From an uncultured Helicobacter sp. (GTDB lineage: Bacteria > Campylobacterota > Campylobacteria > Campylobacterales > Helicobacteraceae), in the NCBI GenBank assembly GCA_947177485.1, contig CAMWUR010000021.1, forward strand, positions 1 through 35,846: 35,846 bases of DNA, written 5' to 3'. How positions within the stretch are numbered: the first letter of the stretch is position 1; every line of letters begins with the position of its first letter. Below are positions 4,315 through 35,172 of this stretch, piece after piece. A model generated the notes under the pieces. That model saw only the letters and a program-made list of their open reading frames with translations. It had not been told where the DNA came from and ran no database searches. The translations under genes were made by a program, and so were the position numbers.

Positions 4315-5560
4315 AATTCCCCTCCTTTTTGACTTGATAATTTTCGACAAACACCCAATCGCCGACATTGGCGGGCATGCGCTTGAAATGGATTCTGTTG
4401 AAGAATTGGTCGAGCCCATTCTTGCTATCGTCCTTGCCCTCGACCAACACGCAGAGCGCAACGCCCCGCGCTTGCAATGTTTGGCGAAAGCGGAAGTTGT
4501 TGGAATCAACAAGCCGCTTGACCGTGTGCAGCCGCGCTTTGGCAACATCGCCACTTGTTGTGGGGGCGAGCATGCTCGAGGGCGTGTTGTTACGTGGCGA
4601 GTAGACAAAGGGGTGGAGATGTGTGAGCGGCAAAGAGGCGAGATTTTCTAGCGCCTGCGCGAAGATGGATTCTGTTTCGCCAGGGTGTCCAACGATAAAA
4701 TCGCTGCCAATCGCATAGCCAAGACGCGCGATTGCGTGCAATTGTTCGTAGTCATTCTCGAAGCGATTGCGGCGATTCATGATTTCTAGCATCGTATTGT
4801 GCGTGTGTTGCAGGGCAATATGCAGATGTCTTGCCATAAACGATTCGCCCAAGAGCTCGAAGAGCTCGGAATCGATTTGGCTGGGCTCGAGCGAGCCGAG
4901 CCGAATGCGTCTCACGCCCTTTATTTGCGCAATCTCACGAATGAGGCGCGCGAGCGTTGGCTTATCTTTGTCTTGTTTAGCGCGTCCATAACTACCTGTG
5001 TTTGTGCCTGTGAGCACAAACTCACTAAACCCGCGCGAGGCTAGAAGGCGAATCTGTTCAAGGATTGTGCGGGGTTCAAATGAACGCGCCGCGCCGCGCA
5101 CTTGAGGGATAATGCAATAACTGCAAGCAAAATCGCAACCCTCTTGAATCTTCACAAACGCACGGCTTTTGCCAACAAAATCGCCAACAAGTGTCGAATC
5201 GAGCGCCGTTTCAGGCAAAAGGCGACAAAAGGGCTCGGGGCTTTGCAGGAGCGAATCGATTTGTTCTTTGAGCGCATGCGAAAACACGGCAAAAACGAGA
5301 TTCTGTTCAAAGAGTTCTTTGCCTTGTGTGGTTGCACCACAACCTGTCAGGAAGATTTTTTTGCCAAGCACGCGCGCGCGGCGGATATAATTGCGCACGC
5401 CACTATCTGACGCATTGGTGACGGTGCAGGAATTGACGATGATGATGTCGGCTTCTTCTTCGTTTGAAGCGATTGTGAAATGTTGCAGATTGCTGCGCAT
5501 CACGGCTGTATCGAAGAGGTTTGTGCGGCAACCGAAAGTTTTGAAAAAGACTCGTGGCAT
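4307..5560 (-). CDS. mtaB: tRNA t6A37 methylthiotransferase MtaB
   Basis: MtaB converts N6-threonylcarbamoyladenosine at position 37 of ANN-decoding tRNAs to the 2-methylthio form, using two iron-sulfur clusters and S-adenosylmethionine. The 417-residue protein has the N-terminal methylthiotransferase domain with conserved cysteines 11 (FGCRTN), 45 (NSCTVTN) and 74 (TGCGA), the radical-SAM triad C142-x3-C146-x2-C149, and a short C-terminal TRAM-like segment. Its length is normal. The ATG at 5560 overlaps the stop of the upstream MscS gene (TGATG) and has GGAG seven bases upstream; a GTG at 5563 is the alternative. The 3' end overlaps the FtsH-like gene by 8 bases, so both are probably translated together. 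MiaB and RimO are relatives; the FGCRTN start and adjacent context favour MtaB. Confidence 0.92.
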   Translation of the reverse strand: MPRVFFKTFGCRTNLFDTAVMRSNLQHFTIASNEEEADIIIVNSCTVTNASDSGVRNYIRRARVLGKKIFLTGCGATTQGKELFEQNLVFAVFSHALKEQIDSLLQSPEPFCRLLPETALDSTLVGDFVGKSRAFVKIQEGCDFACSYCIIPQVRGAARSFEPRTILEQIRLLASRGFSEFVLTGTNTGSYGRAKQDKDKPTLARLIREIAQIKGVRRIRLGSLEPSQIDSELFELLGESFMARHLHIALQHTHNTMLEIMNRRNRFENDYEQLHAIARLGYAIGSDFIVGHPGETESIFAQALENLASLPLTHLHPFVYSPRNNTPSSMLAPTTSGDVAKARLHTVKRLVDSNNFRFRQTLQARGVALCVLVEGKDDSKNGLDQFFNRIHFKRMPANVGDWVFVENYQVKKEGNYA

Positions 5561-7188
5561 CACACATCTCCATGTGGCGCATTGAGCTGCGTTGGAGGGA
5601 TTGCGCCATCATTTGGTGGCGCATCTTTGGGTGCGCGCACTGTCGTTGTTGGGTAGGCTATGGTGATGTCGTCTTCATTTTTGATGGCGTCAATGATTTC
5701 ACCACAAATCGTGCTGTGCAGCGGCAATGTGGCATAGGCATTGGTTTGATACCATAGCGAAACCCGAATCCCATTTGCTTCAATCATCGTAAATACGCGT
5801 GGTTCAACATTGGTGTTGCGCAATGAGTAGCGGTCGCGCAAAAGGTTGAGCTGCTTGCGTGTGATGTCGGTATAGCCTTTGGCATAATGTTTGGCAATAT
5901 CGGTGCAGATTTGCACCATTTTTTTATGATTGGAATCGAAGGTAATCGTGATGTCGATTCCGTCCCAAACGGTTTTCATGCTTCCATGTGTGTAGTTGGC
6001 AATCATTGTTGTAAAGATATAATTATTTGGGATAAAGATGATGCGCCCGGCGCGGCGGTTTTCCATGTATGTTAGCAATGTGATGCCTTCGTGGATTGTG
6101 ATTCGCAATAGCGAAATGTCGAGCACGTCGCCGATGTAGATTGCGCCATCTTTCACAACGCGGATTCTGTCGCCCACATGCACACTGCCGCCCACAACAA
6201 TCACGAACCAGCCAAGCACAGACATGAACAAATCTTTCATTGCAATCGCGAGCCCAGCAGACGCGAACCCCAAAAATGCGACAAGATATGTTACATTTTC
6301 GAGATAGGAAAAGAGTACAATCAGGACGATGATGATGATGTTGATATAATTCACAATTTTGCTCATTGTGTAGCTACGTTCGTTGCTTGTGATGTAGCGG
6401 CGGATTCCGAGCTTGAGCATGAACGCAATGAGAATCGAGAGTAGCACAATCAGCCCGACAATGGCTGCCTTGATGACTTGGTCGGTGATTTCGGCGGTGA
6501 TTTGTCCAATCTCGTCTTCGGCTTTGTTTTGGTACAAATCGAGTGTGGTGGCGAATACATGGGACGTCGAGACGAGGTCTTCGAGCATCGCTTGTGTTGT
6601 GTGCAGCTCTTCGGCAATCGTGCGCCCGCCGCCGAGAATATCATCGGTGCTGCCGAGCTCTTGGAGCTCGCGTAGCAGCTTTGCCTTTTCGGTGAGCCGC
6701 TGTTTGAGCGATTCGAGTGCCTTGAAATTGCTTGTGAGCCGTTTGCTCTCGGCGCGGAGTTGCTTGATGTAGCTCACGCCCTGAATGATAAGGATTGGAT
6801 TGCTGACATGGAAATTGCGCTCCTCAATTGTGGTCGAGATGAGTTCCTTATAGGGGCTGTCTTTGAAGTTCGCGAGCAGGTCTTTTTGCTGCTTGAGTGT
6901 CTCAATCTCGCGTTCGAGCATCGAGTGTTGAATCTGACTTTGTGGCGATTTTTTGAGTTTCTCGAGCTCTTGTTCGGCATTTTGGAGCGAACGGACGACA
7001 TCGAGATAGGTTTTGTAGTTGGCATATTGTTTGCTCCACGCATTGCTCGAATCGTTCAAATAGCGGTCAATAGACGCGAGTGAGAGGAGAATATTGTTTT
7101 GCGAAAGCATGAGCGCCGCGTTGTTTTGCTGGTTTGTGTTGGCAAACAACAGCCCGATTCCGAGTAGATAGATGATTACGAATCGCAA
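5560..7188 (-). CDS. MscS-family mechanosensitive channel (HP0284 type)
   Basis: This encodes a 542-residue small-conductance mechanosensitive channel family protein. It starts with a signal-peptide-like segment (MRFVIIYLLGIGLLFA), followed by about 190 mostly helical, charged residues likely to be a periplasmic coiled coil. Several membrane segments follow at about 230-340, including the glycine/alanine-rich pore helix (FLGFASAGLAIAMKDL), then the cytoplasmic beta-domain (VGDRIRV, FIPNNYIF). Such channels release osmolytes on hypo-osmotic shock. The start is a TTG at 7188 preceded by GGAG and lies inside the last codons of aroB (13-base overlap); it is the only start that keeps the signal peptide. 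A second, unrelated-length MscS gene lies at 11174-13009. The ion or solute carried cannot be told from sequence. Confidence 0.88.
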   Translation of the reverse strand: MRFVIIYLLGIGLLFANTNQQNNAALMLSQNNILLSLASIDRYLNDSSNAWSKQYANYKTYLDVVRSLQNAEQELEKLKKSPQSQIQHSMLEREIETLKQQKDLLANFKDSPYKELISTTIEERNFHVSNPILIIQGVSYIKQLRAESKRLTSNFKALESLKQRLTEKAKLLRELQELGSTDDILGGGRTIAEELHTTQAMLEDLVSTSHVFATTLDLYQNKAEDEIGQITAEITDQVIKAAIVGLIVLLSILIAFMLKLGIRRYITSNERSYTMSKIVNYINIIIIVLIVLFSYLENVTYLVAFLGFASAGLAIAMKDLFMSVLGWFVIVVGGSVHVGDRIRVVKDGAIYIGDVLDISLLRITIHEGITLLTYMENRRAGRIIFIPNNYIFTTMIANYTHGSMKTVWDGIDITITFDSNHKKMVQICTDIAKHYAKGYTDITRKQLNLLRDRYSLRNTNVEPRVFTMIEANGIRVSLWYQTNAYATLPLHSTICGEIIDAIKNEDDITIAYPTTTVRAPKDAPPNDGAIPPTQLNAPHGDV

Positions 7189-11173: not shown

Positions 11174-13009
11174 TTAAACTTCCTTTTTGTTTGGGCTATC
11201 AAGCAGTAATTGTTGAATATCTTTGGGCAGATTCTCAACATAGACGCTTTGAGATGGAAAGGCAAAACTTAGCCCATTGTCTTGAACAATACGCATAATC
11301 TCAAAGAGTACAGATTGTTTGGTTTCTACCCATGCGGCTTTTGAAATTGCAGTGGTGAAACATGAGATAGAAATATCGATGGTCGAATCGCCAAAATTAT
11401 CGAGATAGACTTCAATTGTGCTCTTATTTCCTTCATAATCATCGATTGAGACAAGCTCTTGTTTAATCGTCATCAAGGTGCTTGCATCTGCATAATCACT
11501 TTTTTTAGCAATTCCTTTGTGATTTTCGAGCATGTGAATGATGTCGTTGATACATTTTTGTAATTTATCTGCTGTTGCATCATAAGTCAGCCCGATTGTC
11601 ATTTTAATACGTCTTCCCACTTTGCGCCGATTCCAGTTACAAATTGCGTCATTGACAAACACAGAATTTGGCACGAATAGAAGTGCATTATCAAACGTTC
11701 GAATCGTTGTGCGACGCAAGCCAATCTCAACAACAGTGCCTTCGATTTTATTGCAAGAAATCCAATCTCCTTGAGAAAATGCGTTATCAAAAAGAATCAT
11801 GACAGATGCGAAGAAATTTGCAAGAATATCTTTTGTTGCAAGTGCCACGGCGAGCCCCCCGATTCCAAGAGAAGCAACGAGTGTTGTGATATTGAAACCC
11901 AGTCGTGCGAGAATAGCTAAAATCGCAATAATGACAACAATAGAATAGAGTACTTTTAGGATAAGATTGACGATTTCAGCGCGCACGTTTTTGTAACGTT
12001 TGCGGCTAAAAGTCGTGAGAAAAATTGTTCCATAATATTCGATAATTGTAACAATGAACCAAGCGGTGCTGATGATGTATAAAATATCAAATATTTTATT
12101 CACCAATTCTGGTGGGTTTTGGGGATAATAGATAATCTCCCAACAAATATCAAATCCATTGAATAAGAGAATATATGATAAAGGGCGCACAAGATTTTTG
12201 ATAATGATTGTTTGTTTATCCATGCTTTCTTGGTAGTGAAAAATATAGCCGATGCTTTTGACGGTTGCCACAGCAAGAATCCGGCGAAAGCACCAAAAAA
12301 GTGCAAGAACGGCAATGCAAACAATGAGCTTGCCAAAATTAAATTTCCAAAATGAAAAAGGAATCAAAGAATCTATTTTGTTGATAAATGCTTCAATACC
12401 TAGCGAATCAAAAAGATAGCTATCGCCCAAAAGAGCGCTGTTTGCGTTGAGGTAGTTGAGAACCTCATGGTAGCTTGCAATTTCGTTGCGTAGGCGATTG
12501 AGCTGCTGTGTCAATGCTGCTTTTTGTGCAGAAGGAATATCGAACAATGCGGCTTCATATTGTTCGATATAGAGCGCATCGAGCGAAGCCAAAACGGATT
12601 GAATCGAGCTGCCAATCTGTTCTTGTGTGTAGGTTTGTTTGCGCAATTTGAGCGTGTGTTTGAGCCAATCGAACATTAAAATTTGCGCGTCAATTTGCGC
12701 ATTTTGAATCTGATAGCGCAAAGTGGCTGCTGGATTGTTTTTTGATTTTTCCAATGCAACCTCTACATTGCTTTTGTCTTTATTGAGTGCGGCTTGAAGA
12801 AGCGCCATCTTGTCGTCTTTGGTGTCTAGGCTATCGGGAAGCTCGGCGAGCAAGGCATTTTTTTGCGCAGCTTGCGAATCCCCATCTTGTTGGTTGAGAT
12901 TTTCAAGCTGACGCAAGAGATTAAAGAATGGCACAAAGTCGTATTCTACTGCTGCATGCAACGGAATCCATGTCATAAGAAAGAAAAAAACTGCAAAGAA
13001 CCATCTCAT
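11174..13009 (-). CDS. Large MscS-family mechanosensitive channel
   Basis: This is a 611-residue protein with a signal peptide (residues 1-20, ending HAA), a helical periplasmic domain of about 180 residues, several membrane segments from about 218 to 400, and the MscS pore helix and beta domain (LGIGGLAVALATKDILANFF, then FVPNSVFVN). The C-terminal alpha/beta domain includes NFGDSTIDISISCF. Such large MscS proteins protect against hypo-osmotic shock. The ATG at 13009 is preceded by AGGAG, whose first bases overlap the selD stop codon, so coupling with selD is likely. It is not a close duplicate of the 5560-7188 channel: lengths and N-terminal domains differ. Confidence 0.88.
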   Translation of the reverse strand: MRWFFAVFFFLMTWIPLHAAVEYDFVPFFNLLRQLENLNQQDGDSQAAQKNALLAELPDSLDTKDDKMALLQAALNKDKSNVEVALEKSKNNPAATLRYQIQNAQIDAQILMFDWLKHTLKLRKQTYTQEQIGSSIQSVLASLDALYIEQYEAALFDIPSAQKAALTQQLNRLRNEIASYHEVLNYLNANSALLGDSYLFDSLGIEAFINKIDSLIPFSFWKFNFGKLIVCIAVLALFWCFRRILAVATVKSIGYIFHYQESMDKQTIIIKNLVRPLSYILLFNGFDICWEIIYYPQNPPELVNKIFDILYIISTAWFIVTIIEYYGTIFLTTFSRKRYKNVRAEIVNLILKVLYSIVVIIAILAILARLGFNITTLVASLGIGGLAVALATKDILANFFASVMILFDNAFSQGDWISCNKIEGTVVEIGLRRTTIRTFDNALLFVPNSVFVNDAICNWNRRKVGRRIKMTIGLTYDATADKLQKCINDIIHMLENHKGIAKKSDYADASTLMTIKQELVSIDDYEGNKSTIEVYLDNFGDSTIDISISCFTTAISKAAWVETKQSVLFEIMRIVQDNGLSFAFPSQSVYVENLPKDIQQLLLDSPNKKEV

Positions 13010-13018
13010 GTTTGTCTC

Positions 13019-14086
13019 CTATCCGAGCGTAATCGCCCAATTTTTTCGTTGTGTCACATCACCAATACAAGCACCCATAATCCCTTCTTTGCACAATGCG
13101 TCCAAGGCTTTGGGCGCTTGTGTGCTTGGGAGTGCAAAAAGAAGCCCTCCGCTTGTTTGTGCGTCAAAGAAAATATCGGCATAGGCATGCGCACCATCGC
13201 TCTGAATGCTCACATATTTGCCGAGCACTTCGCGGTTTGCGCTCGACCCTCCGGGCAAGATTCCGCTTGCCAGCCTCTCCTTGACGCCGCCCATAAGCGG
13301 CACAGCGCTGCAATCGAGATTGAGGGCGAAGATTCCCTCTGCGCCCCCTGCCATTTCAAAGGCATGCCCCACGAGCCCAAAACCGGTAATGTCTGTGCAT
13401 GCATGCACATCAAAGGCGCGCATGACACGTGCTGCATAGAGATTGAGTGTGCTCATCACATGTGTAACCTCGTCTATCTCATTCTTGCTTGCCTTGCCGC
13501 GCTTGAGCGCCGTGCTCAAAATGCCGCTGCCAAGAGGCTTAGTGAGCAAGAGCAAATCGCCAATTTGGGGCGTGTTATTGCGCCAGATTTGCTGTGGATT
13601 CACAAGCCCCATCACGCTTAGCCCATATTTTTGTTCTTTGTCGGCAACGCTGTGTCCGCCCACAAGTGCCGCACCTGCTTCGTTGATTTTGCTAAGTCCC
13701 CCGCGCAAAATTTCTTGGATACAGGCTTTGTCGATATTGCATTTGTCCCACGCAAGCACATTGAGCGCACTCTTTGCCTCGCCACCCATCGCAAACACAT
13801 CGCTTAACGCATTTGCTGCCGCGATTGTGCCAAATGCAAAAGGGTCATCAACAACAGGTGTGATGAAGTCAATCGTGAGTATAGCCGCGAGTGTATCCGT
13901 CAATTGCACCACAGCGGCATCATCACTACCTTCAAAGCCCACAAGTACATCTGCATCGGGGGCTTGGCGCGGACGCAGTTGTGTGAGGTCCTCCGGACCT
14001 ATCTTGCCCGCTCAACCAGCCACAGAGACAAAATGTGTAAGCTGTGGAAAGGTTATTTGCAATGGCGCTTTGCTCGCTTTGTCCAT
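13019..14086 (-). CDS. selD: Selenide, water dikinase SelD, a selenoprotein (UGA = Sec25)
   Basis: SelD makes selenophosphate from selenide and ATP, the selenium donor for selenocysteine and 2-selenouridine. Reading from the ATG at 14086 (AGGAG seven bases upstream) gives one frame broken only by TGA at 14014-14012, exactly where the family has its catalytic Cys or Sec: VAG-U25-AGKIGP, with the partner Lys at 28. Past the UGA the frame continues through GFEGSDDAAVV and the AIR-synthase-like ATP-binding fold (AGGHSVAD, TDITGFGLVGHAFEMA) to a stop at 13019, 355 residues in all, normal for SelD. A SECIS-like hairpin follows the UGA at the right distance. A plain annotation would start falsely at the GTG at 13942. 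selA, selB and selC must lie elsewhere. It is followed nine bases later by an MscS gene. Confidence 0.93.
13986..14000 (-). promoter_or_regulatory. Bacterial SECIS-like hairpin of selD
   Basis: On the minus strand AGGTCC-GGA-GGACCT forms a perfect 6-bp stem with a GGA loop. The stem starts 11 bases after the UGA (14014-14012) and the loop 17 bases after it, within the range known for bacterial SECIS elements, which also need a G at the start of the loop. It should recruit SelB with Sec-tRNA. Confidence 0.8.
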
Positions 14087-14132
14087 TGATTCTCCTTTTT
14101 GGGATTGTAGCGCAGAATATTGAACAGCTTGT

Positions 14133-27793: not shown

Positions 27794-30181
27794 ATGATGT
27801 TCCCAACCGAATTTGGCTTGATTTTAAACGTGCTCTTTACGCTCATCATGTTTTTTTTAGCATGGCTTGATTGGCGCAGTTTTGGCTCGCAAAACCACAA
27901 AGATTTCAAGTCGGTGATTATGAGCACAGGTGTGCTGGGGACATTTGTTGGAATTTTTGTCGGATTGTTAGGCTTCGACACGACCAAAGTAACAGATTCG
28001 ATTCCGCTCTTGCTCGATGGGCTCAAGGTGGCGTTCTATACCTCGATTGTCGGAATGGGCATTGCGATTGCGCTCAATATCGCCCAAAAGGGACGCAAAA
28101 AAATGTCTACACCAAAGAGTGGGACAGAATATCTCAACGCGCAGCTCCAAAAGCTTGAAATGCTCGAACATCTCGAGGAGCTCAAGAATGTCTCGAGAAT
28201 GCATAATTTTTTGCAAGAAAGTTTTGCTAGACATGAAAAAGCGCGCGAAAGCGAGCAGCGCGCCGAGAACGAGCGCTTTACTGCTACGCAACATCTCTTG
28301 CAACAAGGCTTTGCAGGGATTGAGACAAGCCTTGCAGCAGCGCTCGAAAAGCTTGCTAAAGGCGCGAGTGAGGGGCTTATCGAGGCTCTTGCTGGTGTGA
28401 TTCGTGATTTTAATAAAAACCTAAACGAGCAGTTTGGGCAAAATTTTGTCGAGCTCAACAACGCTGTGGGTGCAATGGTCGTGTGGCAGCGCGATTATCA
28501 GGGGACGCTCGACAAAACCCAAGAATCATTGCGGCAAATGGAACAAAGCTTTGCCCAAAGCGTCAGCGCGATTGAGCAGGTTGCCGCGCGCAATCGCGAG
28601 GTGATGGAGTTCTATGCCGACCTCAAGGAGTTTTTGTCATCATCTCAAGAGAGTGCCGAGCAATTGCGCACGCACCTTAGTGGCATTGCCGCGCTGGGCG
28701 ATGACGCAAGAGAATCATTGCTCAATGTGCGCACACTCTTTGACGAATCGGCACAAAAAATTGGCAACCTTGCGAGCAGTCTGCAGCAGAGTTTCAAAGA
28801 ATCCGAGGACGACCTCGTCCGCCGAATCAAGCAATTTGGTGACAACTCGACAGCGACAATCCAACATCTCACGCAGAATCTCATCACGCATAGCGAGATT
28901 CTCAAAAACCATATCGCGAGCAATAGCGATGCGCTCAAAGAAAGCTTTGTGATGTTTGGCGACAATGTCAAAAACTTTAGCGCAAATCTCAACAGCGAGA
29001 TTATCGGAATCTACCACAACGCAGCGCAGCAGATTCACCAAGACAGCGAGCAATTTGCGCAAACGATGACACAACAAAGCAACGCGATTCAAGGCAAGCT
29101 CGCAACGCTTGCAAGTACAGGCGAGCAAAGCCTCACGCAGCTCCATAGCAAACTGCAAACAGTCGCGGAGCAAAACAGCGCATTACTCGAAGATTCGCTG
29201 CAAAAAAGTCAAAATGTGATGGAACAGCGCAGCCAAAAAATCGAGCAGTTGCTCGGCATGCATAGCGAGCAGCTGCAAAACAATGTGGCGCGCCTCACGG
29301 GCGATGTGATGGGTGCAATCGAGCAGATGAGCAATGAAGTGCGTACTCTAAGCAGCAAAGTGCGTGAGGATATGACACAAACACTACAAGTAATGCGCGA
29401 AGAGATGCTGAAGATGACAAATCTGACGAAAGAGGGCATGACGGCTGGTGCAAACGCGATGGTCAAGCAGAATCGCGTGTTTTTGGAAGGAATTGGCAAC
29501 CAAACTAAGGAATTTTTCACTCAATCGCTCAATGATTGGCAAAAGGAGCAAAAGCAAGCAATCGGTGCGATTTCGCAAAACTTTCAAGCCCTTGTGGGCA
29601 GTCTTGCAGGCAATCTCAAAACACTCAATGACGGACTCAACAGCGGCATTAGCGAGATTAAGGAGAGTTTGCGCAACCTGCTGGGCGATGTTGTGAGCGA
29701 CCTCAAACACGGCGCGGAGGAATACAATAGCGCGTCTCTTGCCGTGCTCGAATCCAACATCGAGCAGATTTCGAGCAAGATTGTCGTCTTGCAAGAAACC
29801 TCGCACCACTCGCTCGAGCGCATTGCGCAGGAATATTTGACGCAGTTCAAGGCGCTCATGAGCGAGAGTGTGAATATCCCCAAAGACGCGAGCATGCAGA
29901 TTCTAAGTGAGATTGAGAATCTCCAAAAAGGCATTGCGGCAAACCTGATTGCGGCAAATCAAAGTATCTTGAACAACAAAGAAGAAGTGCGCGCGATTAT
30001 CGACAATGTGAATGCGCATTTGGAGAATCAACTGACAGAAACGCAGAAAATCAGCAGCAATCTTTACGATTCCTTGCAAGCGCTCGATGGCTCGATGAGC
30101 AAGCTCACTGAAGGTTTCAAGGGCGATTATGAATGGTTCTTGCGCCGAATCAGCGAGTTCATGGGCTCGCATAGGGGCTAG
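27794..30181 (+). CDS. ZorA-like MotA/TolQ/ExbB-family protein with long coiled-coil tail
   Basis: This is a 795-residue protein with three membrane helices near the N-terminus (about 8-26, 42-61 and 76-97). TM2 carries STGVLGTFVGIFVGL and TM3 carries LLLDGLKVAFYTSIVGMGIAI, the pattern of MotA/TolQ/ExbB channels of the ZorA subgroup. From about residue 110 to the end it is a cytoplasmic, Ala/Gln/Ser/Glu-rich, nearly continuous helical or coiled-coil tail, with methyl-accepting-protein-like regularity. In Zorya antiphage systems ZorA and ZorB form a proton-driven motor with a long internal tail. Only the A/B pair occurs here. ATG at 27794 or 27797 (the latter better spaced after AAGGA). Composition matches the housekeeping genes around it. 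Confidence 0.82.
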   Translation: MMFPTEFGLILNVLFTLIMFFLAWLDWRSFGSQNHKDFKSVIMSTGVLGTFVGIFVGLLGFDTTKVTDSIPLLLDGLKVAFYTSIVGMGIAIALNIAQKGRKKMSTPKSGTEYLNAQLQKLEMLEHLEELKNVSRMHNFLQESFARHEKARESEQRAENERFTATQHLLQQGFAGIETSLAAALEKLAKGASEGLIEALAGVIRDFNKNLNEQFGQNFVELNNAVGAMVVWQRDYQGTLDKTQESLRQMEQSFAQSVSAIEQVAARNREVMEFYADLKEFLSSSQESAEQLRTHLSGIAALGDDARESLLNVRTLFDESAQKIGNLASSLQQSFKESEDDLVRRIKQFGDNSTATIQHLTQNLITHSEILKNHIASNSDALKESFVMFGDNVKNFSANLNSEIIGIYHNAAQQIHQDSEQFAQTMTQQSNAIQGKLATLASTGEQSLTQLHSKLQTVAEQNSALLEDSLQKSQNVMEQRSQKIEQLLGMHSEQLQNNVARLTGDVMGAIEQMSNEVRTLSSKVREDMTQTLQVMREEMLKMTNLTKEGMTAGANAMVKQNRVFLEGIGNQTKEFFTQSLNDWQKEQKQAIGAISQNFQALVGSLAGNLKTLNDGLNSGISEIKESLRNLLGDVVSDLKHGAEEYNSASLAVLESNIEQISSKIVVLQETSHHSLERIAQEYLTQFKALMSESVNIPKDASMQILSEIENLQKGIAANLIAANQSILNNKEEVRAIIDNVNAHLENQLTETQKISSNLYDSLQALDGSMSKLTEGFKGDYEWFLRRISEFMGSHRG

Positions 30182-30183
30182 AC

Positions 30184-30942
30184 ATGCAAAGGGATAGCGA
30201 GTGGATTAGCATTTCGGATATGATGGCGGGGCTCATGATGATTTTCCTGCTCATCACGGTCTCGTATATGCTGATTTCAGAGCACAACCAAGAAGAATTG
30301 CGCAAAAGCAACGAGGAATTGCGCGCCGTGAGCGACAAGATGAGCGCGATTGCCGAGGGGTATTATGACATTGAATTCGCACTTTATCATGACCTCATCA
30401 GAGAATTTGGCGATGATTTGAAGATGTGGAATGCCGAGATTGATTCGGGGAACACGATTCGGTTCAAAGAACCTGATGTGCTGTTTGCCACAGGCGAGGG
30501 CGCGATTCAGCAGCGGTTTAAAAAGGTGCTCGATTCGTTTTTTCCGCGCTATATCGCGATTCTCTCGAGCCCGAAATATCGCGAGAGTATCGAGGAGATT
30601 CGCATCGAAGGGCACACATCGAGTGAATGGAAATCCTCGCACGACCTCGTTGAACGTTATCTCGAAAACGCCTCGCTTTCGCAAGCACGGGCATTTTCTG
30701 TATTGCAATATTGCTTCAACCTGCCCGATGTACGTGAGCGCGATTGGCTGATTTCTGTGCTCCGCGCCAACGGCTTATCGTTTGCCAAGCCGCTCGAAAC
30801 AGACGCACTCTCGCGCCGTGTCGAGTTTCGGACGATTACCAAGAGCCGCCAAAAAATCCAAGAGATTTTCAATATCAAAGAAGAATCCACAATCTCTGCC
30901 GAGGTTGCAAGCGAGCTTGAAAAGGCATTGTTGCACGATTAA
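30184..30942 (+). CDS. ZorB-like OmpA/MotB-family motor protein
   Basis: This is a 252-residue protein with one membrane helix (about 13-32) entered by SISDMMAGLMMIFLL. D12 sits where MotB/ZorB carry the ion-binding Asp. A helical linker (33-60) is followed by a periplasmic OmpA/MotB peptidoglycan-binding domain: VLFATGEGAI (99-108), IEGHTSS (141-147), LSQARAFSV (165-173) and SRRVEFRT (210-217). It begins two bases after the ZorA-like stop. Together they should form a peptidoglycan-anchored stator. No ZorC, ZorD, ZorE or nuclease gene follows; copA does. I infer a motor pair of unknown output, related to Zorya A/B. Confidence 0.85.
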   Translation: MQRDSEWISISDMMAGLMMIFLLITVSYMLISEHNQEELRKSNEELRAVSDKMSAIAEGYYDIEFALYHDLIREFGDDLKMWNAEIDSGNTIRFKEPDVLFATGEGAIQQRFKKVLDSFFPRYIAILSSPKYRESIEEIRIEGHTSSEWKSSHDLVERYLENASLSQARAFSVLQYCFNLPDVRERDWLISVLRANGLSFAKPLETDALSRRVEFRTITKSRQKIQEIFNIKEESTISAEVASELEKALLHD

Positions 30943-30987
30943 CTTTTTTGTGCTAAAAGCAAAAATATTTTGCAGCAAGGAATCGCG

Positions 30988-33374: not shown

Positions 33375-33583
33375 ATGAATCTTTGCGTATTGTCGTAATT
33401 GCTGTGGCTTTGGCGCACAGGCGATTTGCAAGACATCAAGCGAGAGAGCAAGCAAGATAGAACTTGTGCCATTGTTTCTCGCGTTGGGCGGTTGCGCCCC
33501 TAGTTTGCCATGTGATGTTGCGATTGAGAATCGCCGCTTTGCTCATGGCATGTTTGGTTTGTATTTTGCCATTAGGAGCGAGA
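33375..33583 (+). other. Long leader or gene remnant before the ATPase gene
   Basis: About 209 bases lie between the promoter and the ATPase start. They contain a GGGCG-GTTG-CGCCC hairpin (33486-33499) without a U-run, and from an ATG at 33515 a signal-peptide-like reading (MLRLRIAALLMACLVCILPL) that runs in frame into the ATPase but has no ribosome binding site. It could be the 5' stub of a lost secreted-protein gene, or an untranslated leader. Confidence 0.45.
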
Positions 33584-34612
33584 GTGGAGAAGGGCAGTAT
33601 TGTTCTGACACTTGAAAATATAGGAATGCTGAAGAAAGCGCAGGTTGACATCGGCGGCTTGAGCGTCATCGCTGGCGAGAATGACGAGGGCAAGAGCACC
33701 GTTGGCAAGGCGCTGATGGCTTTGATTAAAGCAGAAAATACTTTTGTAGAGAAAACATCTCCTAAACATGCCAAACAATCTTTTAATCGTTTGATTGATT
33801 TGCTTTTTGATAATCAAATGACTGAAAAGGGTTATTTGAATCTTGAAGTCAATAGGGATGAATTTTATAAAGTAACAATTGTAGAAAATGAATGTATTAG
33901 CTTTGATAGAGGATTCAGTAGCAGATTTTCTGATTGTACTTTTGTACCAAGTCCTTTGATTTGGGATTTATATAACTTTTTTTCGTCTGTTGCGGTATTA
34001 GAGGTTGAAAATAGGTTTTATCAAAGCAATCAAAATGAATTTGACTTTAAATATCCTTATATTCTGTGGGATTTATATAGAAAAATATCCATAGAACGTC
34101 CATGTTTGATAAGAGGAAGCATTCAAGAAATCAAAGAGTATGTTCAAGAAATTATGAGTGGTTTTTTTATTAAGAAACAAGGTAAATACGTATTCTACAA
34201 ACCCGAATCAGACTTTCAAGTGTCAATAATGAATACAGCAACAGGAATTAAAAGTTTTGGCATATTACAAATGTTGATTCAAAATGATTATATGACCGAA
34301 AACAGCTTTACTATCTTCGATGAACCCGAAAATCATCTCCACGCCACATGGCAGGTGAAGTTTGCCGAGATTCTTGCGCGACTTGTGCAAAACCACGTTT
34401 GCATTATGGTGAATACGCATAGCCCCTATATGCTCGAAGCGTTGCATAAATATGGAAAAAAGTACGCAATTAATACAAATTTCTATTTGGCAGATAGTGG
34501 CAAAGTTGAGCAAATCGATAATGACAATAGTGCGACTTTGGAAAAGATATATAAAAAACTGAATCAGTCTTTTATCTCTTTGGACGAAATATTAGATGAA
34601 GAAGAGGAATAG
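33584..34612 (+). CDS. AAA/ABC-type ATPase (AAA_15/AAA_21-like), possible defence ATPase
   Basis: This is a 342-residue cytoplasmic ATPase of the SMC/OLD/RecF-like kind. Motifs: an N-terminal strand pair (LTLENIGMLKKAQVDI), Walker A GENDEGKST (31-39), a signature-like TGIKSFGI (220-227), Walker B FTIFDEPEN (242-250) with D246/E247, and the NTHSPYML switch (277-284). Length is short because the coiled-coil or insert part between Walker A and B is only about 200 residues. The GTG at 33584 has AGGAG five bases upstream. Walker A and Walker B/H-loop coding stretches are GC-rich, while the segment between (about 33720-34310) is AT-rich, suggesting a mosaic. It lies five bases before a gene with a PD-(D/E)XK-like motif; OLD- or Septu-type pairing is inference. 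Confidence 0.8.
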   Translation: MEKGSIVLTLENIGMLKKAQVDIGGLSVIAGENDEGKSTVGKALMALIKAENTFVEKTSPKHAKQSFNRLIDLLFDNQMTEKGYLNLEVNRDEFYKVTIVENECISFDRGFSSRFSDCTFVPSPLIWDLYNFFSSVAVLEVENRFYQSNQNEFDFKYPYILWDLYRKISIERPCLIRGSIQEIKEYVQEIMSGFFIKKQGKYVFYKPESDFQVSIMNTATGIKSFGILQMLIQNDYMTENSFTIFDEPENHLHATWQVKFAEILARLVQNHVCIMVNTHSPYMLEALHKYGKKYAINTNFYLADSGKVEQIDNDNSATLEKIYKKLNQSFISLDEILDEEEE

Positions 34613-34617
34613 AAAAC

Positions 34618-35172
34618 ATGGCTGATTTAGGTGTTTTGAAGGGAATTTTTGAACCCTATGAATCGACTTTGCAGGACACAAGCTATGATTTAACAAACAA
34701 AAAATATCTCTGCCAAAGCCAAGAAAGAGTCATTAATTTTGACAAATACACACAAACAAAAGCGCAAAAATCAAAATGTAAAGCCAACAAATCTTTTGAC
34801 ACGCTGTATTTTCACCATGAAACTTCTAGCGTCTATTGTGTCGAGTTTAAGAATCAAAAATATAGCGACATTGATAGCGATGATATTAGGGAAAAATTTA
34901 TATATGGAATTGCTCAATTAAGAGAAATTTTTATCTCTCAAAATATTAATACAGATAATTTTACTTTTAATCTCTTTGTTGTCTTTAAGAATCCACGAGA
35001 AACAAGAGCCTTTCACACAAGGTTTGTAGAAACAGAGACTTTTTTTGGTTTAGATACGAAAAAATTTAAAGAAAGCCTAGCAAAAATTAAATCTCTCAAA
35101 ATAAAAACAGGCTATGGGGCTCAATTTGGGAAAATCTACAAAAAGCTATTCCACAATGAAAGCAATTGCTAA
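34618..35172 (+). CDS. Unknown protein with PD-(D/E)XK-like nuclease motif
   Basis: This is a 184-residue cytoplasmic protein, AT-rich in coding sequence. D61 (KSFDTLYF) and E76-x-K78 (VYCVEFKNQ), 14 residues apart on two predicted strands, fit the D-(x)n-ExK pattern of restriction-endonuclease-like nucleases; a helix with Q100 (GIAQLREIF) and a further strand (FNLFVVF) follow, as in that fold. No signal peptide or membrane segment is present. The ATG has AGAGGA upstream overlapping the ATPase end, five bases after its stop, so the two are one operon. The pairing recalls ATPase-plus-nuclease defence systems. I could not match it to a named family; the nuclease call is by motif only. Confidence 0.65.
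   Translation: MADLGVLKGIFEPYESTLQDTSYDLTNKKYLCQSQERVINFDKYTQTKAQKSKCKANKSFDTLYFHHETSSVYCVEFKNQKYSDIDSDDIREKFIYGIAQLREIFISQNINTDNFTFNLFVVFKNPRETRAFHTRFVETETFFGLDTKKFKESLAKIKSLKIKTGYGAQFGKIYKKLFHNESNC

Follow-up and report, generated by a model that had tools for sequence, protein, structure and literature searches.

An uncultured Helicobacter species carries a selD gene with an in-frame UGA that very probably encodes a selenoprotein

On the minus strand of the window, by which we mean the whole 35,846-nucleotide stretch analysed here, the reading frame of selD opens with an ATG at 14086-14084 and ends at 13019, and its sole interruption is a TGA at 14014-14012 (Table 1). Translated with this TGA as selenocysteine (Sec), the frame contains the stretch VAG-U-AGKIGP, which holds U25 and K28. 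The ORF finder yielded a 307-aa ORF from GTG 13942, the start at which the first-pass annotation had expected automatic annotation to begin, and such an ORF is without both the catalytic residue and Lys28. The positions given there for the ATG, the TGA, the GTG and a hairpin behind the TGA all proved exact to the base when the sequence was re-read. A gene for an MscS-type mechanosensitive channel (11174-13009, minus strand) starts 9 bases past the selD stop codon, and a different MscS-type channel gene lies at 5560-7188 on the same strand.

Table 1. Features of the selD locus and the second UGA-containing gene of the genome
Feature	Position	Strand	Basis
selD, selenide, water dikinase, 355 aa, Sec at residue 25	13019..14086	-	Frame reading, TIGR00476, solved relatives
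In-frame TGA, Sec codon at the catalytic position	14012..14014	-	Frame, relatives' loci, alignment with 3u0o and 2yye
Bacterial SECIS-type hairpin, 6 bp, GGA loop, 11 nt past the UGA	13986..14000	-	Pairing conserved in relatives
Shine-Dalgarno-like AAGGAG upstream of ATG 14086	14092..14097	-	Sequence reading
Formate dehydrogenase-like molybdoenzyme (FdhA-like), L066	G000:C44:10255-11595		TGA at V-U-HSP

Elsewhere in the window, two adjoining genes on the plus strand (27794-30942) have PADLOC matches to two components of the type II Zorya anti-phage system, ZorA2 (9.4e-56) and ZorB2 (1.6e-75); the gene after them, at 30970, is by appearance a heavy-metal P-type ATPase, and no third Zorya gene was seen adjoining the pair. 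Also on the plus strand, the stretch 33464-35172 encodes an AAA ATPase similar to defence ATPases of the HEC-02A/NsnB type (3.7e-27), and behind it lies a gene of 184 aa with no match in Pfam or PADLOC. It is possible that these two form a two-gene defence unit.

The 355-aa product scored 347.9 bits against the SelD equivalog model TIGR00476, whose curated cut-off is 125 bits, and its best solved relatives are the SelD structures 3u0o and 2yye. In the alignment with these two, the residue encoded by the TGA falls on the first Cys of GAGCGCKISP (3u0o) and on the Cys of SSGCAAKVGP (2yye), which is the position of the catalytic Cys17 of E. coli-type SelD, and U25-A-G-K28 occupies the C/U-x-x-K loop. 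The E. coli-type enzyme 3u0o is homologous over residues 15-345 and identical in the position of its loop, but that loop carries Cys (GCGCK) where the present protein carries Sec (GUAGK). The loop conforms to the UxxK motif of the Sec-SelD/SPS2 family, in which Sec lies in an N-terminal flexible loop (PMC4561486, PMC13188914), and we found no difference in kind from that family. Selenophosphate synthetase (UxxK) is among the experimentally verified selenoprotein families (PMC13188914).

Taken by itself, the window presents a stop within a conserved enzyme, as would be seen if a nonsense mutation or a sequencing error had made selD a pseudogene. We searched 121 genomes of the same bacterial family and found a match in 84, one of which (G037) was weak and paralogue-like and was set aside, leaving about 83 genomes with SelD. 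Approximately 82 of these 83 have one TGA inside selD, in separate assemblies; in three genomes (G086, G089 and G034) the SelD match is in pieces and the TGA lies in the N-terminal piece. Where loci were read directly, TGA stood at the Sec codon in 29 of 29, window included. A misreading of TGC or TGT, which the first-pass annotation had named as a way for its claim to fail, is ruled out as a one-base error by this retention of the TGA in relatives. Judged from the sequences, a frame that continues through a TGA into a conserved SelD, with the same TGA in relatives, is not a product of chance, and this conservation weighs more than the hairpin by itself. All nearly complete genomes with a TGA-containing selD also encode SelA; a group of genomes within genus g2 encodes SelA but no SelD, the pattern described for the H. 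pylori lineage (PMC4607533).

Among the SelD genes of the family, Cys at this position was seen only in that of G120 (L031, G120:C1:961352-962353), which has TGT at the Sec codon in an otherwise full frame, so that Cys can evidently serve at the Sec site in a relative. This gene also bears on whether a shorter SelD, initiated at GTG 13942 or nearby, could work without the N-terminal loop. The 307-aa ORF would be its product, but that product lacks the residues named above, whereas the frame upstream of the GTG is conserved in relatives at the protein level, begins at a good start with a Shine-Dalgarno-like sequence, and is present at full length in G120 with Cys replacing the TGA. We therefore give a functional short form almost no credence and read the gene from ATG 14086.

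The hairpin behind the TGA is AGGTCC-GGA-GGACCT, as the first-pass annotation had claimed, and its loop begins 17 nt past the UGA. The bSECIS rule of Zhang and Gladyshev 2005 is said to call for a stem of 4-16 bp and a loop about 16-37 nt past the UGA, the loop reportedly being small with a G among its first two bases; the selD hairpin, with its 6 bp, GGA loop and spacing, agrees with this rule. Under loose bSECIS rules, 5.2% of the TGA triplets in the window (65 of 1259) have a comparable hairpin behind them, and when the 20 codons after the selD TGA were recoded synonymously 20,000 times, such a hairpin formed in 1.0% of the recodings. Taken alone, the hairpin is thus modest evidence for Sec, and we rejected it as sole proof: a hairpin of this kind would be expected by chance after roughly 1-5% of TGAs.

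Comparison with relatives adds to this. Across 28 distinct selD hairpin sequences, 98.2% of cells pair, a figure that falls to 23-53% once the partner side is shifted along, although the rows are related rather than independent and the shuffle and Fisher figures accordingly overstate significance. Conservation of the hairpin is also partly shared with conservation of the protein. The top pair of the stem (20-24) is U-A in 20 of the sequences, C-G in 5 and unpaired in 3, and the codons that contribute it are CCG-GAG in the window and CTG-GCA or CTG-GAA in the nearest relatives. Its 5' side changes with a switch between Pro (CCG) and Leu (CTG) and its 3' side is the third position of the next codon, so that the protein alone fails to explain why the two sides match. 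A covariance model built from the hairpins of relatives, with the present sequence included, gave a single strong match in the genome, the selD site. Used to search the genome for further SECIS elements, the model gave only weak, unconvincing matches besides selD and missed the hairpin of the FdhA-like gene described below, indicating that it is specific to SelD.

The first-pass annotation had proposed searching the genome for selA, selB, selC and other UGA-containing selenoprotein genes; the first three and one further UGA-containing gene were found. SelA (G000:C31:449-1540) and SelB (C31:1600-3411) are neighbours on one contig, a tRNA-Sec with a UCA anticodon lies on another (C34), and mnmH, encoding tRNA 2-selenouridine synthase, is also present. 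One of the three molybdopterin oxidoreductases of the genome has an in-frame TGA, within RV-U-HSP, the Sec site of formate dehydrogenase, and this TGA is followed by a 5-bp hairpin, TTGCC-GGTGT-GGCAA. This FdhA-like gene led us to reject the idea that the genome encodes no selenoprotein besides SelD, the situation reported for H. mustelae (PMC4607533). DUF466 (PF04328), considered as a further selenoprotein, gave no match. Since the TGA is conserved, the hairpin shows compensation and the Sec genes are present, selD is neither a pseudogene nor the result of a sequencing error, a reading to which we assign a negligible probability.

Another way to read the UGA would be non-specific suppression, with insertion of, for example, Trp or Cys. 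Cys works at the same position in other SelD proteins and one family member has it there, but a complete selA/selB/selC set, a SECIS-like hairpin with compensation and a second gene whose UGA occupies a known Sec site all speak against suppression, which we regard as exceedingly improbable. The frame, the conservation of TGA and hairpin, SelA, SelB and tRNA-Sec, and the second UGA gene together bear out the claim that SelD is itself a selenoprotein, and it is almost certain that this is a functional selD with Sec inserted at the UGA.

From these observations we infer both the decoding of the UGA as Sec and the activity of the enzyme. Ribosomes would start at ATG 14086, and SelB-GTP, bound to the downstream hairpin and bringing Sec-tRNA(Sec), would place selenocysteine at residue 25. 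In the flexible N-terminal loop, this residue would handle selenium, followed by Lys28 and a predicted ATP-binding AIRS-type fold, and SelD would convert selenide and ATP into selenophosphate, from which SelA would make Sec-tRNA and MnmH the 2-selenouridine of tRNA.

The genome has a single selD; a second, Cys-type selD, which would break the dependence of SelD on itself, was sought in the genome and none was found. Because the only SelD is a Sec-SelD and SelA requires selenophosphate, new SelD would need existing Sec-tRNA and hence existing SelD. The self-dependent loop proposed in the first-pass annotation thus follows logically, but it is not special to this genome: it applies to every organism whose only SelD is a Sec-SelD. 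Presumably each cell satisfies it with SelD and charged tRNA passed on by its mother cell.

Nor is the gene new in kind, as had been implied. A 2015 study reported that in Epsilonproteobacteria, Helicobacter included, SelD belongs to the Sec machinery and is at the same time a selenoprotein, and the Sec form is normal in the group; most such selD genes are truncated in GenBank, and they share a hairpin of 5/6 bp whose loop has an invariant G and which is supported by covariance (PMC4607533). The present gene agrees in its Sec position, short apical hairpin and truncated annotation, and differs only in its host, a further Helicobacter-like species for which the nearest named relatives in this analysis are uncultured MAGs. 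It is an ordinary member of the known Sec-SelD. According to one proposal, Sec-SelD can preserve the Sec trait in organisms that lack FdhA (PMC1794560).

The locus is a clean case of a gene truncated by automatic annotation, and the survey carries the published pattern of Sec-SelD on to some 80 genomes of the family. G120, whose selD hairpin is perfect despite the TGT (AGGTCC-GGG-GGACCT) and whose genome still encodes SelA and tRNA-Sec along with a molybdopterin oxidoreductase containing one TGA, is a natural point of comparison when asking what SelD gains from Sec. It is conceivable, though we consider it unlikely, that SelD, through its Sec, works as a switch responding to selenium status in these bacteria, making the loop regulatory rather than incidental; if so, with one selD and a UGA inside it, the supply of SelD would drop cooperatively as selenium runs out.
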